This document shows positions 57,734-63,779 of a stretch of 64,000 bases of DNA, piece by piece (position 1 is the stretch's first letter; each line of letters begins with the position of its first letter). This stretch comes from Curtobacterium sp. MCBD17_035 (GTDB lineage: Bacteria; Actinomycetota; Actinomycetes; Actinomycetales; Microbacteriaceae), in contig NZ_CP126279.1 in NCBI RefSeq assembly GCF_003234815.2, positions 1,488,001-1,552,000 on the forward strand, in the 5' to 3' direction. The notes beneath the pieces are model-generated. The model saw only the letters and a list, made by a program, of their open reading frames with translations, made no database searches and was not told the origin of the DNA. The position numbers and the translations under genes are program-made.

Positions 57734-59053
57734 ATGGCTGCCCGGAGCACGACGATCGATGCGACGAAGGCCACGGCCGACGCCGAGACGGTGGAGACCG
57801 CGACCGATGAGAACGCGGCACCCGCCGCGCCGAAGAAGCGCGCCCCCGCCAAGAAGGCCGCGCCGAAGAAGACGACCGCCAAGACCGCGCGCGGCAAGGC
57901 GGCCGCCCCCGCCGACGACGAGCCGGACACCGTCGAGGACGCGCCGGAGGACGCCGTCGACGTCGAGGCCGACGACACCGAGGTCGCGGCCGACTCCGAG
58001 GACAGCGACACCGAGGACGGCGAGGAGACCGAGTCCGAGGACACGGCGACCCCCGCGCCCGAGGCGGCCCCTCCGGCGGGCGCGCTCGTCATCTCGCAGG
58101 CCGACGACGACGAGGTCCCGGTCTACTCGACCACGATCACGGGCGCCACGGCGGACCCGGTCAAGGACTACCTGAAGCAGATCGGCAAGGTCCCGCTCCT
58201 GAACGCGGCCGAGGAGGTCGAGCTCGCGATGCGGATCGAGGCCGGCCTGTTCGCCGAGGACAAGCTCCAGCACGCGACGGGGCTGTCCAAGCAAGAGGAG
58301 CGTGAGCTCAAGTGGGTCGCCCGCGACGGTCAGCGCGCGAAGTCCCACCTGCTCGGTGCGAACCTCCGCCTCGTGGTGAGCCTCGCCAAGCGCTACACGG
58401 GTCGCGGCATGCAGTTCCTCGACCTCATCCAAGAGGGCAACCTCGGCCTCATCCGTGCCGTCGAGAAGTTCGACTACACGAAGGGCTTCAAGTTCTCGAC
58501 CTACGCGACCTGGTGGATCCGGCAGGCGATCACCCGCGCCATGGCGGACCAGGCGCGGACCATCCGCATCCCGGTCCACATGGTCGAGGTCATCAACAAG
58601 CTCGCCCGCGTCCAGCGGCAGATGTTGCAGGACCTCGGACGTGAGCCCACGCCCGAGGAGCTCGCGCGTGAACTCGACATGACGCCCGAGAAGGTCGTCG
58701 AGGTCCAGAAGTACGGCCGCGAGCCGATCTCGCTGCACACCCCGCTCGGCGAGGACGGCGACAGCGAGTTCGGTGACCTCATCGAGGACACCGAGGCCGT
58801 CGTCCCGGCGGACGCAGTGGGCTTCACGATGCTGCAGAAGCAGCTCGAGAGCCTGCTCGACTCGCTGTCCGAGCGCGAGGCGGGCGTCATCCGCATGCGC
58901 TTCGGGCTCGGCGACGGCATGCCGAAGACCCTCGACCAGATCGGCGACACGTTCGGCGTCACCCGCGAGCGCATCCGCCAGATCGAGTCGAAGACGATGG
59001 CGAAGCTGCGCCACCCGTCGCGGTCGCAGTCCCTGCGCGACTACCTCGAGTAG
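57734..59053 (+). CDS. rpoD: RNA polymerase primary sigma factor (SigA/RpoD)
   Basis: Housekeeping sigma factor, 439 residues. An Ala/Lys/Glu-rich N-terminal ~120 residues is typical of high-GC actinobacteria. Conserved regions follow: 1.2 ([16 protein letters not shown]), 2 ([38 protein letters not shown]), 3 and 4 ([20 protein letters not shown]). It is first in a run of genes murT-gatD-parE conserved in Microbacteriaceae. Confidence 0.97.
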
Positions 59054-59060
59054 GCCCCGC

Positions 59061-60320
59061 GTGCGTTTCGTCGTCCCGATCCTCATCGGGCGGATCCTCC
59101 GCGCCCTCGCTCGTGCGCGCGGCGGGGGGTCCGCCTACCCCGGCTACATCCTCCTCAAGCTCGTTCCCGACTTCCTCCGGCACGTGTCGCGGCAGTTCCC
59201 GAACGGGATCGTGTTCGTCCTGGGTTCGAACGGCAAGTCGACGACGACCCACATGATCTCCGAGATCATGCGGGCGCACGGGCTCCGCGTGTTCACGAAC
59301 CCGTCCGGGGCGAACCTGCCGCAGGGCATCGCGTCGGCGCTCCTCTCGGAGGTCGGGCTGACGGGACGCCTCAAGGCGGACATCGGCATCCTCGAGGTCG
59401 ACGAGGCCTTCGCCGTGGAGCTGTCCGGCATCCTCTCGCCGTCGACGGTCACGATGCTCAACGTGCAGGTGGACCAGCTGTACCGGTTCTTCGAGACGGA
59501 GCGCGTCGCGACGATGATGCTCGACACCGCGGCGACGTCGTCGCGGAACGTCATCACGAACCACGACGACCAGTTCCTCGACGCCTACGAGGGCCGGGCC
59601 GGCCAGCGGGTCCTGCGCTTCGGCGCCGCGCCCGAGGTCGTCGCTGCGGCCCCGAACGGATTGCAGAACGCGGACGACTTCGCCCGGGACGCGTCGGGCA
59701 CGACCGCCGCGGACGCCGAGGTCGTCGAGTCCACCGGGGACGCAGCGGTGGTCCGCTTCGGTGGGGCCGACATCCCGGTGCGGCTGCCGGCCCGGGGGCT
59801 GCACTACGCGGTGGACGCCGCTGCTGCCACCGCGACCGCTTCGGCCGCCCTCGGCGAGCAGTTCCGCGCGGAAGCGGTGACCCGGGCCTTCACCGCGATG
59901 AAGCCGGCCTACGGGCGTGGTGAGCGCATCCCGATCGCGGGAGAGCACGCCGAGTTCACCATGTTCAAGAACGCCGCGAGCCTGCAGCTCAACCTCGACG
60001 CCCTGTCGACGCCGCCCGAGCAGGTGCTCATGGCGATCGACGAGGGCACGCCGGACATCTCCTGGATCTACGACATCGACTTCTCGCATCTCGACCACGT
60101 GGACGTCGTGTCGGGTGACAAAGCGTGGCAGATCGCCCTCGCCCTCGAGTTCGCCGGGGTGCGGATCGGCCGTGTGGAGCCTGATGTCGAGGCCGCGATC
60201 CGACTGATGTCCGGACTCGGAGCGACGACGTCCGGTACGAAGCACTTCATCGTCAACTACGAGATCATGATGCTGGCCCGCAAGGCCCTCGGTCATCCCG
60301 ACCTGGAGAGGACGGCATGA
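59061..60320 (+). CDS. murT: MurT-like Mur ligase (lipid II isoglutaminyl synthase subunit family), no cysteines
   Basis: A 419-residue ATP-dependent ligase. The Mur-ligase core has the P-loop VLGSNGKSTTTHMISEI and the C-terminal DUF1727 has AIDEGTPDISWIYDIDFSHL, typical of MurT. The four-Cys zinc ribbon of true MurT is gone; the protein has no cysteine at all. In the known enzyme it activates the D-Glu alpha-carboxyl of lipid II for amidation. With a partner GatD lacking catalytic residues, another nitrogen donor is suspected. GTG 59061, 7 nt after the rpoD stop; stop overlaps gatD. Confidence 0.85.
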   Translation: MRFVVPILIGRILRALARARGGGSAYPGYILLKLVPDFLRHVSRQFPNGIVFVLGSNGKSTTTHMISEIMRAHGLRVFTNPSGANLPQGIASALLSEVGLTGRLKADIGILEVDEAFAVELSGILSPSTVTMLNVQVDQLYRFFETERVATMMLDTAATSSRNVITNHDDQFLDAYEGRAGQRVLRFGAAPEVVAAAPNGLQNADDFARDASGTTAADAEVVESTGDAAVVRFGGADIPVRLPARGLHYAVDAAAATATASAALGEQFRAEAVTRAFTAMKPAYGRGERIPIAGEHAEFTMFKNAASLQLNLDALSTPPEQVLMAIDEGTPDISWIYDIDFSHLDHVDVVSGDKAWQIALALEFAGVRIGRVEPDVEAAIRLMSGLGATTSGTKHFIVNYEIMMLARKALGHPDLERTA

Positions 60321-61087
60321 CGGCCGATTGCCTCACGATCCTGCACCTCTACCCGCGGCAGATGGGCGTCTCGGGCGACCGGGGGAACGTGACCGCCCTC
60401 GTCGCCCGCGCGGACGCCGCCGGGATCCCGACCGAGGTCGTGCGCCACGACGTCGGGGACAGCCTCCCGACGGACGCCGACGTCGTCGTGGTCGGCAACG
60501 GCCCGCTCAGCGCGATGCGCTCGCTCGGCGGGGACCCCGCCCGGCTCGCACCGTTCCTCCAGGACGCCGTCGCCGCCGGCGTGCCGCTCGTGGCGGTCGG
60601 TGGCGGCTACGACCTGGCGACCCGCGAGGTCGTCCCCACCGAGGGGACGCCGGTGACCGGCCTCGGGGTGTTCGACGCCCGCGCCGTGCGGGGCGCCGAG
60701 CGCCGGGTCAACTACTTCCTGCTCGACGTGCGTGCGACCCTGCCCGGCGGAGACCAACGCGTGGCGGGGTTCGAGGACCACGCGACCCGCATCGAGAACA
60801 TCGATCCCACGGCGGTGTTCGCGGACGTCGTGTCGGGCGGCGGCAACCAGGACGGCACCGGCACCGAGGGCTCGGCGACCGCCGCGGCGTTCGGCACCCA
60901 CACCCAGGGGCCGCTCCTGCCACTGAACCCGCACCTGACCGATGCGGTGTTGGCCGCCGCCACCGGTCGTCTGGGTCGCGAATACGCGCCGGATCCGGCC
61001 CGCACCGCCGCCGTGGACCGCTACGCTCGCGAGGCCCGCGCGGTGATCACGCGCTACGTCGACAAGGCGTTCAAGCGCATCGCCTGA
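60317..61087 (+). CDS. gatD: GatD-like glutamine amidotransferase, catalytic residues missing
   Basis: A 256-residue class I amidotransferase-fold protein. The family frame is intact: LHLYPRQMGVSGDRGNVTAL, RVAGFEDHATRIEN, GPLLPLNPHLTD. But the nucleophile elbow, normally AVCGGYQLLG, is AVGGGYDLATRE (Cys to Gly at residue 95), and the catalytic His of LHGPLLP is Gln (residue 197). It should not hydrolyse glutamine. It may still be a structural partner of MurT. ATG 60317 overlaps the murT stop. Confidence 0.85.
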   Translation: MTADCLTILHLYPRQMGVSGDRGNVTALVARADAAGIPTEVVRHDVGDSLPTDADVVVVGNGPLSAMRSLGGDPARLAPFLQDAVAAGVPLVAVGGGYDLATREVVPTEGTPVTGLGVFDARAVRGAERRVNYFLLDVRATLPGGDQRVAGFEDHATRIENIDPTAVFADVVSGGGNQDGTGTEGSATAAAFGTHTQGPLLPLNPHLTDAVLAAATGRLGREYAPDPARTAAVDRYAREARAVITRYVDKAFKRIA

Positions 61088-61198: not shown

Positions 61199-61423
61199 CT
61201 ACTTGCTCTCGTAGAGACGGCTGGTCTCGTCGTGCCACTCGAGGGCGGTCGCGGCGAGCTTGTCCTTGAACTCGGCACCGTGGTGGGCGCAGAAGAGGAG
61301 CTCGCCGCTCGCCATCGTGGCTCGGATGTAGGCCTGCGCGCCGCAGCTGTCGCAGCGGTCGGCCGCCGTGAGCTGGTTGCTGCCGAGGTCGTCGATGGAG
61401 AGGTCCTGCACGGTCTGGGACAT
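61199..61423 (-). CDS. small zinc-binding actinobacterial protein (DUF7455-like)
   Basis: A 74-residue protein (LTAADRCDSCGAQAYIRATM, then LLFCAHHGAEFKDKL). CDSCG and CAHH form a likely zinc site. Members are found near parE/rpoD in many actinobacteria, role unknown. ATG 61423 follows GAGGAG. Longer upstream frames lack a ribosome site. Confidence 0.75.
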   Translation of the reverse strand: MSQTVQDLSIDDLGSNQLTAADRCDSCGAQAYIRATMASGELLFCAHHGAEFKDKLAATALEWHDETSRLYESK

Positions 61424-61640
61424 GGTGTGCTCCTCGTTGATCGGAGGCGGTGCCGGGGTTGGTGCGTCCATTTCAGCACGCGCTCCCTGGGATCCCCGCA
61501 TTGTGGTCGCGCTGTTTCGCTGACCGCGGATTCCGTCGACGGTCACCTGCGCGTCGCGGACACCGCCGGGAGGCGCGGGTCGGCCGAGCGTCGTGCGCTC
61601 ACGTCCGGGGTGGTGCGCCAGGAGCGTCACCGGTCGCGGG

Positions 61641-61652: not shown

Positions 61653-63779
61653 GTGAGTTCCGACTACAACGCCCGCCATCTCTCCGTGCTCGAAGGGCTC
61701 GAGGCGGTCCGCAAGCGTCCCGGGATGTACATCGGTTCGACGGACTCACGAGGGCTCATGCACTGCCTGTGGGAGATCATCGACAACTCCGTCGACGAGG
61801 CCCTCGCGGGCCACGGCGACGAGATCACGGTGCGGCTGCACGCGGACGGCAGCGTCGAGGTCGGGGACGTCGCGCGTGGCGTGCCCGTCGACGTCGAGCC
61901 GAAGACGGGGCTGACGGGCGTCGAGGTCGTGTTCACCAAGCTCCACGCGGGCGGCAAGTTCGGGTCCGGCTCGTACGCCGCGTCCGGCGGTCTGCACGGG
62001 GTCGGCGCATCCGTCGTGAACGCACTGTCGGAACGCCTCGACGTCGAGGTCGACCGCGGCGGCAAGACGTACGCGATGTCGTTCCACCGCGGTGAGCCCG
62101 GCGTGTTCGACGACGCTGCGGGCATCGGCCCGGACGCACCGTTCACCCCGTTCACCTCGGGCAGCGAGCTCCGATTGATCGGCAAGGTGAAGCGCGGCGT
62201 CACCGGCACGCGCGTCCGGTACTGGGCCGACCGGCAGATCTTCACCGCCGACGCGGTGTTCCAGCTCGGCGACCTGACGAACCGGGCGCGGCAGACGGCG
62301 TTCCTCGTGCCGGGTCTCGGCATCACCATCACCGACGAACGCCCGCACGCGATCGCCGCGGCGTCCCGGCTCGCCGAGGGGCAGGGCGCCGAGCGGCTCG
62401 AGGGACCGGTCGTCGAGCGGTTCCGGTTCGACGGTGGCATCAGCGAGTTCGCCGAACACCTCGCTCCGGACACGGCCGTGACCGACACGTGGCGCGTCAC
62501 GGGGACCGGTACCTTCACCGAGACCGTGCCGGTGCTCAACGACGCCGGGGCGATGGTCGCGACCGAGGTCGAGCGCACCTGCGAGGTCGACGTCGCGCTG
62601 CGCTGGGGGAGCGGCTACGAGACCGTGACCCGGAGCTTCGTCAACATCATCGCGACGCCGAAGGGCGGGACGCACCAGACGGGCTTCGAGAACGGTCTGA
62701 TGAAGGCGATCCGCGCGCAGGTGGACGCGAACGCCCGCAGGCTCAAGGTGGGGCAGGACAAGCTCGACAAGGACGACGTGCTCGCCGGACTCACCGCGGT
62801 GCTGACGGTGCGGCTGCCCGAGCCACAGTTCGAGGGGCAGACGAAGGAGATCCTCGGCACGCCGGCGGTCCGGCAGATCGTCGCGAACGTCGTGGCCGCC
62901 CGGATGACCGAGATCCTGACGTCGACGCAGCGGACCGAGAAGGCACAGTCGCAGGCGCTGCTCGAGAAGGTCGTCTCGGAGATGAAGTCCCGGATCTCCG
63001 CTCGCGCGCACAAGGAGACCCAGCGCCGCAAGAACGCGCTCGAGAGCTCGTCCCTGCCCACGAAGCTCGCTGACTGCCGGTCGAACGACGTCGCCGCGAG
63101 CGAACTCTTCATCGTCGAGGGCGACTCCGCGCTCGGCACCGCCAAGCTCGCCCGGAACAGCGAGTACCAGGCGCTGCTTCCGATCCGCGGCAAGATCCTC
63201 AACGTGCAGAAGGCCTCGGTGAGCGACATGCTCTCGAACGCCGAGTGCGCGTCGATCATCCAGGTGGTCGGAGCCGGATCCGGACGCTCGTTCGAGCTCG
63301 ACCAGGCCCGTTACGGCAAGGTCATCGTCATGAGCGACGCCGATGTCGATGGTGCGCACATCCGCACGCTGCTGCTGACGCTGTTCTTCCGGTACATGCG
63401 CCCGATGATCGAGGCCGGCCGGGTGTTCGCCGCCGTCCCGCCGTTGCACCGCGTCGTGGTGGTGAACCGGGGCAAGCCGAACGACACGCTGTACACGTAC
63501 TCGGAGCAGGAGCTGCAGGGCGTGCTCCGGAAGCTCGAGAAGTCGGGCAAGAAGTACCAGGAGCCGATCCAGCGCTACAAGGGCCTCGGCGAGATGGACG
63601 CCGACCAGCTCGCCGAGACCACGATGGACCGGGCGCACCGGACCCTCCGGCGCGTCAACGTCTCGGACGCCGAGAACGCCGCTCGGGTGTTCGAGCTGCT
63701 CATGGGCAACGACGTGGCGCCACGCAAGGAGTTCATCCTGGCCGGCCAGGGGCTCGACCGGGACCGCATCGACGCCTGA
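61653..63779 (+). CDS. parE: DNA topoisomerase IV subunit B / GyrB-type
   Basis: ATPase subunit of a type IIA topoisomerase, 708 residues. The GHKL ATP site has the N-box EIIDNSVDEALAG but an odd G1 box, GDVARGVPVDV, where DNGRG is usual. The transducer domain, TOPRIM (IVEGDSALGTAKLAR, DADVDGAHIRTLLL) and the C-terminal YKGLGEMDADQL are normal. Lies beside rpoD-murT-gatD, the ordinary place of parE in this family; gyrB-like identity cannot be fully excluded. Confidence 0.9.
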   Translation: MSSDYNARHLSVLEGLEAVRKRPGMYIGSTDSRGLMHCLWEIIDNSVDEALAGHGDEITVRLHADGSVEVGDVARGVPVDVEPKTGLTGVEVVFTKLHAGGKFGSGSYAASGGLHGVGASVVNALSERLDVEVDRGGKTYAMSFHRGEPGVFDDAAGIGPDAPFTPFTSGSELRLIGKVKRGVTGTRVRYWADRQIFTADAVFQLGDLTNRARQTAFLVPGLGITITDERPHAIAAASRLAEGQGAERLEGPVVERFRFDGGISEFAEHLAPDTAVTDTWRVTGTGTFTETVPVLNDAGAMVATEVERTCEVDVALRWGSGYETVTRSFVNIIATPKGGTHQTGFENGLMKAIRAQVDANARRLKVGQDKLDKDDVLAGLTAVLTVRLPEPQFEGQTKEILGTPAVRQIVANVVAARMTEILTSTQRTEKAQSQALLEKVVSEMKSRISARAHKETQRRKNALESSSLPTKLADCRSNDVAASELFIVEGDSALGTAKLARNSEYQALLPIRGKILNVQKASVSDMLSNAECASIIQVVGAGSGRSFELDQARYGKVIVMSDADVDGAHIRTLLLTLFFRYMRPMIEAGRVFAAVPPLHRVVVVNRGKPNDTLYTYSEQELQGVLRKLEKSGKKYQEPIQRYKGLGEMDADQLAETTMDRAHRTLRRVNVSDAENAARVFELLMGNDVAPRKEFILAGQGLDRDRIDA

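Follow-up and report, generated by a model that had tools for sequence, protein, structure and literature searches.

What does a MurT/GatD pair do once its GatD half lacks the catalytic residues of a glutaminase? The question is raised by a 64,000-nucleotide stretch of Curtobacterium sp. MCBD17_035 (Microbacteriaceae; contig NZ_CP126279.1, positions 1,488,001 to 1,552,000), hereafter the window, in which two adjacent genes resemble the lipid II isoglutaminyl synthase MurT/GatD. We propose, with a probability of roughly two in three and on the basis of sequence comparison, that this pair ligates a bridge amino acid to the D-Glu α-carboxyl of B-type peptidoglycan; the amino acid is probably a D-diamino acid, such as D-ornithine (D-Orn) in Curtobacterium. 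B-type peptidoglycan has reportedly been classified since 1972, by Schleifer and Kandler, and the papers turned up by full-text searches of one library, aimed at the enzyme linking this bridge to D-Glu, do not name it. A bridge built through the carboxyl of D-Glu itself requires that carboxyl to be activated, and MurT is the known activator of it; the aminoacyl-tRNA-dependent Fem enzymes act on amines.

Loss of the Donor Machinery and Retention of the Activation Residues

The MurT-like gene (59061..60320, plus strand, GTG start) encodes a 419-residue ligase, and the GatD-like gene (60317..61087, plus strand, ATG start) a 256-residue partner. The two overlap in an ATGA (60317..60320, plus strand) read from the sequence, suggesting translational coupling. 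Pfam matches are to Mur_ligase_M (41.9 bits, cut-off 24) and MurT_C (36.1, cut-off 25) for the former and to GATase_3 (40.8 bits, cut-off 27) for the latter, and the scores fall far below the NCBIfam equivalog cut-offs for isoglutaminyl synthase (82.9 versus 800 for MurT, 60.2 versus 400 for GatD). Alignment with Staphylococcus aureus GatD agrees with the original prediction in placing Gly95 at the position of the nucleophile Cys94 and Gln197 at that of the catalytic His189; Ser19 replaces the Tyr plug. As also predicted, the MurT-like protein contains no Cys, and its partner contains one (Cys5). The MurT-like protein has its adenosine triphosphate (ATP)-site and acceptor residues and lacks the ammonia gate and the ND..ADG motif; its P-loop begins at residue 55, an N-terminus too short for a UDP-MurNAc-binding domain. 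A second, complete MurT/GatD elsewhere might have done the work of amidation, but a search of the strain's own genome (E≤1e-12) found no other MurT homolog.

Residues were tabulated for 71 pairs of the window's type (class C; 67 of them distinct when the final 300 MurT residues are compared), 35 of class B, 16 of class A, seven of class D, and two odd pairs, taken from the window's family, from named genomes, and from nine further families in the order. Possession of the GatD Cys defines classes A and B, class B being the zinc-less canonical pairs; GatD His189, GatD Tyr30, and MurT Arg135 are each present in 51/51 of them, including 14 pairs from Microbacteriaceae. The nucleophile is found in none of the 71 class-C GatDs (Gly 55, Ala 11, Ser 2, Asn 2, Thr 1), and both residues of the ammonia gate, MurT Arg135 and GatD Tyr30, are likewise missing (0/71 each). 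The MurT DNAAD or ND..ADG motif is gapped in every class-C sequence (71/71); its letters are present in 34 or 35 of the 35 class-B sequences. All 71 class-C pairs retain the P-loop Lys, Glu108, Asn85, Arg304, and Asp349, and the MurT-facing GatD segment GT..xGPxL is still conserved. By a quick tree method with midpoint rooting, class C forms a single clade beside the zinc-less canonical clade.

Published work gives these positions a functional meaning. Asp349 of S. aureus MurT and Cys94 of GatD are reported to be needed for function, the 135–143 loop of MurT and Tyr30 of GatD are tied to the ammonia path, and DNAAD has been suggested as a lipid II contact, a like motif in MurE recognizing its amino acid (PMC6113224, PMC6085368). 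The Mur ligase counterpart of Asn85 contacts the acceptor carboxylate, and loss of Asn85 is described as killing the pneumococcal enzyme (PMC6085368). The MurT zinc ribbon is reported from some bacteria only (PMC6113224, PMC6085368).

Two traits were rejected as markers of class C. The Cys4 ribbon is indeed absent from the window MurT, as predicted, but its loss is not diagnostic because it is common to active class-B pairs, none of which (0/35) shows the CxxC..CxxC pattern. Loss of the catalytic His does not define the class either, as His189 is still present in 34 of the 71 class-C GatDs. Separately, 42/71 class-C GatDs carry a His two residues before the catalytic-His position, where canonical GatDs have Tyr; this residue is possibly part of a new pocket. 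In the class-C GatD of one genome (G015, locus L066), Ser replaces the Cys.

Across ten Curtobacterium sequences (45 pairs each), the median ratio of nonsynonymous to synonymous substitution rates (dN/dS) is 0.171 for MurT and 0.157 for GatD. The class-C pair is under purifying selection and is not decaying. The predicted structures resemble the canonical subunits: the GatD-like model (predicted local distance difference test score, pLDDT, 93.9) matches Streptococcus pyogenes GatD with a Z score of 29.2, and the MurT-like model (pLDDT 91.1) matches S. pyogenes MurT with 29.0. The fold of the latter says nothing on the donor because CphA (29.6), MurC (29.1), and MurT are tied.

Distribution of the Pair

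A class-C profile was run over 120 Microbacteriaceae genomes, with 48 class-C loci read and the others classed by score. Class C occurs in 74 of them (72 at a score of at least 468 bits, plus G015 and G068); class D accounts for seven, odd pairs for two, and partial or unclassified matches for three. Across the order, 107/297 genomes have a MurT match, 94 of them outside Microbacteriaceae. We read 36 of these 94 loci, from nine families; one (L095) is cut, and Cys and His are both kept in all 35 whose GatD could be read. In a survey of 396 genomes of the phylum, class-C scores (at least 566 bits) were confined to four genomes of the window's family, the next score, 416 bits, belonging to a canonical pair.

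The search also covered 49 named genomes, drawn by a 16S pattern scan from among the matches listed. Class-C level matches were found in Curtobacterium (8/8), Leifsonia (2/2), Frigoribacterium (2/2), Herbiconiux (2/2), Agreia (1/1), Naasia (1/1), and strains without a genus name (3/3). No class-C match was found in a Homoserinimonas metagenome-assembled genome (MAG), in Luteimicrobium, or in the MAG of locus L149, and one Streptomyces and one Kitasatospora carry canonical pairs. A further genome (G439), linked to a contig of Curtobacterium sp. MCBD17_013, matches the window at 100% identity across the sigma-factor, DUF7455, and topoisomerase stretches. The match positions in the family genomes G035, G011, and G068 agree with those in Frigoribacterium sp. 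PhB160, Herbiconiux gentiana, and Naasia, respectively.

A Possibly Exchangeable Slot between Sigma Factor and Topoisomerase

Class C has a nearly constant genomic place. In the window, the principal sigma factor (RpoD type; 57734..59053, plus strand) ends 7 nucleotides before the GTG of the MurT-like gene and forms the left border of a ligase slot, bounded on the right by a DUF7455 gene (61199..61426, minus strand) and the gene for subunit B of a type IIA topoisomerase (GyrB/ParE; 61653..63779, plus strand). In the window, no additional gene separates the pair from its neighbors. The position directly behind the sigma factor is occupied by 69/71 class-C and 7/7 class-D pairs and by 0/51 pairs of classes A and B. 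Rhodoluna lacicola MWH-Ta8 and Clavibacter nebraskensis NCPPB 2581 both have class C at this position. The order in longer stretches is sigma factor, ligase or ligases, DUF7455, topoisomerase.

In the 16 pair-less family genomes examined, other amide ligases hold the slot. We examined 15 of the 24 named Microbacterium slots that lack it (with the Homoserinimonas MAG, loci L304–L307, L311–L313, L332–L339, and L343), most genes being assigned by tblastn to scanned relatives. All 15, and the Homoserinimonas MAG, contain a CofE-like gene (PF01996) followed by one or two ATP-grasp genes (PF14397). Two scanned CofE-like proteins score 47.0 and 48.6 bits against PF01996 (cut-off 25), and that of the M. 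lacticum slot scores 29 against a CofE equivalog cut-off of 180.65. None of the 14 long slots occupied by a dead pair contains a CofE-like gene. A gene resembling alanine racemase, though divergent, occurs in 10/15 Microbacterium slots and in 3/5 named pair-type slots. Among the latter, the M. esteraromaticum slot reads sigma factor, MurT, GatD, racemase-like gene, with no CofE-like gene; those of Leifsonia Root227 and Agreia combine the pair with racemase-like genes, the topoisomerase and DUF7455 genes of Agreia being inverted. The pair stands unaccompanied in the slots of Frigoribacterium, Leifsonia Root4, Rhodoluna, and the window. An ATP-grasp gene stands beside class D in 4/7 cases and also in G018, a class-C genome. 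Luteimicrobium, the sole slot from outside the family and thus a single control, has a fatty acid desaturase there.

What is new here is the place of class C directly behind the sigma factor, together with the finding that other amide ligases or class D fill the same slot. We read the slot as a likely site of exchange between equivalent ligases, with the CofE-like and ATP-grasp proteins as candidate ligases for a two-residue bridge. A Mur-ligase paralog substituting for the pair was considered and not seen: the 15 pair-less Microbacterium genomes have five (11 genomes), six (three), or seven (one) Mur_ligase_M matches, and 14 family genomes with the pair have six to eight.

Several further loci were recorded. 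None of the 14 canonical Cys/His pairs within the family (L002–L015) adjoins the sigma factor. In Naasia (G454; L249, L280), the sigma-factor/pair genes and the topoisomerase gene lie ~31 kb apart, and the MurT gives a two-piece match in one search and a single open frame in another, probably reflecting an insertion. CofE-like proteins adjoin the pair of G566 and the odd pair of G053, a family genome; the latter pair is a dead MurT/GatD (L321:6717-9497), and the 15-kb stretch around it shows no match to the sigma factor. The slots of M. oleivorans, M. dauci, and M. sp. 11MF (L333, L334, and L338) are the three with two plus-oriented ATP-grasp genes and no racemase-like gene, in contrast to most of the other slots.

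Proposed Function and Wall Chemistry

In the mechanism we propose, a repurposed MurT/GatD would form the initial bond of the interpeptide bridge in B-type walls. MurT, whose activation residues are kept, would use ATP to phosphorylate the D-Glu α-carboxyl of the peptidoglycan precursor, with an amino acid's amine, in place of ammonia, as the attacking nucleophile. GatD, its catalytic residues lost, would no longer hydrolyze glutamine and would persist as a required structural subunit. The C94G variant of S. aureus GatD is reported to lose Gln-dependent activity and to keep ammonia-dependent activity at pH 8.5, with MurT alone inactive (PMC3266927); such a structural need would account for the retention of a dead GatD. 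The pair would belong to an interchangeable cassette flanked by the genes for the sigma factor and the topoisomerase.

Curtobacterium walls contain D-Orn, and the Microbacterium bridge has a Gly spacer. The family as a whole is described as having group B walls (PMC10978784), with Microbacterium bridges of L-Lys, D-Orn, or diaminobutyrate (Dab) (PMC10757982). Among holders of class C, R. lacicola MWH-Ta8 has a B2β wall with D-Ala-D-Dab, measured on that strain (PMC4156110), and a B2γ wall with Dab is stated for the species C. nebraskensis. At the level of the genus, Herbiconiux is B2γ with D- and L-Dab (PMC10011130), Agreia B2γ with L-Dab and D-Orn (PMC5945732), Frigoribacterium B2β with D-Lys, and Homoserinimonas B2β with D-Orn (PMC7033078).

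A broader suggestion, which we advance tentatively and at somewhat less than even odds, is that the whole slot is an exchangeable cassette setting the B-type bridge. Class C, class D, and the CofE-like plus ATP-grasp module would all activate the D-Glu α-carboxyl; one ligase would attach a D-diamino acid directly, two would insert glycine first, and a racemase-like gene would often accompany a diamino acid of D configuration. Homoserinimonas fits neither the ligase-number rule nor the racemase rule well. As a strict D-ornithine marker, the racemase-like gene fits only partly. M. lacticum and M. flavum have L-Lys. Their slots lack the gene, and they are placed in one clade (PMC10757982). The gene is present in the slots of M. 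oxydans and M. testaceum, to which D-ornithine is assigned by study-strain neighbors and clade (PMC10757982). Its absence from the slots of M. oleivorans, M. dauci, M. sp. 11MF, and the Homoserinimonas MAG speaks against such a marker.

A number of observations count against assigning bridge ligation to the class-C pair. B-type species do not hold it universally, and it is missing from most Microbacterium: only 1/25 named Microbacterium (among the matches listed) has a class-C match, as do 21/119 genomes of the genus of G106, which we take to be Microbacterium from the close grouping of its MurT with that of M. esteraromaticum. In the family survey, 22/120 genomes have no MurT homolog (two with weak general Mur ligase matches only), 12/120 have a canonical pair alone (10 zinc-less, two zinc-type), and two (G054, G066) combine class C with a canonical pair. 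The interpretation in the original prediction is partly supported: class C was seen only in Microbacteriaceae, and the 35 readable pairs from nine other families in the order are all canonical, as against the pair-less Microbacterium and the canonical-only genomes. Outside the family, a class-D profile finds a related pair without Cys and His in nine genomes from two further families within the phylum (f35, f56); these dead pairs (L271–L279, L323–L326) have a Cys-rich MurT, followed at L324 by a CofE-like gene, and no canonical pair was found in the nine genomes. In M. esteraromaticum the pair is present, although Gly precedes D-Orn in the genus to which this species formerly belonged. The Homoserinimonas MAG has a CofE-like module in its slot and no racemase-like gene, despite a genus-level D-Orn wall like those of pair holders, and is at odds with a plain equation of D-Orn with the pair. 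A motif subtype acting as an amino-acid code is unsupported, as Rhodoluna has GT-DVHD and Clavibacter DD-GTPD, both with diaminobutyrate.

Alternative Explanations

The pair might instead ligate an amino acid, in the wall or the cytoplasm, to another carboxyl, for example in position-3 chemistry, on a bridge residue, or in a small peptide metabolite. The tie of its Mur ligase fold with CphA and MurC would suit such a role, as would the ATP-grasp and racemase-like genes in the slots of relatives. Its sequence kin are MurT/GatD amidators, beside which class C is nested, and the acceptor-contact residue Asn85 is retained in 71/71, both of which make this explanation unlikely.

Less probable still is that the pair continues to amidate D-Glu with free ammonia, the glutaminase being dispensable. 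The precedent is the S. aureus MurT/GatD-C94G complex with its ammonia-dependent amidation at pH 8.5, and the GatD fold is predicted to be kept in the window protein; the data given in the same report, however, have neither C94G nor the wild type active with ammonia at pH 7.5 (PMC3266927). The loss of Arg135, Tyr30, and ND..ADG in 71/71 pairs also exceeds what glutaminase loss alone would need. An amidated α-carboxyl, moreover, is unable to carry a B-type bridge.

Two explanations are very improbable. That GatD and MurT are a non-catalytic scaffold or decaying would accord with the lost Cys and variable His, but the dN/dS of about 0.16, the ATP-site residues invariant in 71/71, and a locus kept in 69/71 argue against it. 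A different glutaminase docking on the pair to supply ammonia or another amine has nothing direct in its favor beyond the need of family amidators for a donor, and the absence of a third gene at the locus and the conserved GT..xGPxL segment, where GatD meets MurT, leave little place for it.

If ligation of a bridge amino acid to D-Glu by class C is correct, a glutamine amidotransferase has been turned into an apparent amino acid ligase, the slot provides testable bridge-ligase genes at one locus, and Microbacterium strains with and without the pair are natural swap controls.

Comparison with Known Systems

The nearest known system is the MurT/GatD lipid II isoglutaminyl synthase, with structures from S. 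aureus (6gs2/6h5e/7q8e), Streptococcus pneumoniae (6fqb), and S. pyogenes (9sq9/9sqj). The window pair shares with it a two-gene operon, the Mur_ligase_M plus MurT_C and GATase_3 domains, a short MurT N-terminus, the ATP site, Asn85, Asp349, and the GatD fold. It differs in lacking the nucleophile Cys, the catalytic His, the Tyr plug, and Arg135, and in the deletion of ND..ADG. CofE, the F420-0:gamma-glutamyl ligase (PF01996), is an amide ligase that joins an amino acid to a carboxylate; it belongs to a different Pfam family from MurT, and its relatives occupy the same slot in Microbacterium. With MurC–MurF, CphA, and the pseudomurein ligases, the window MurT-like protein has an ATP-dependent ligase fold in common. 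Unlike them, it has no UDP-binding N-terminal domain, is paired with a GatD partner, and groups by sequence with MurT.

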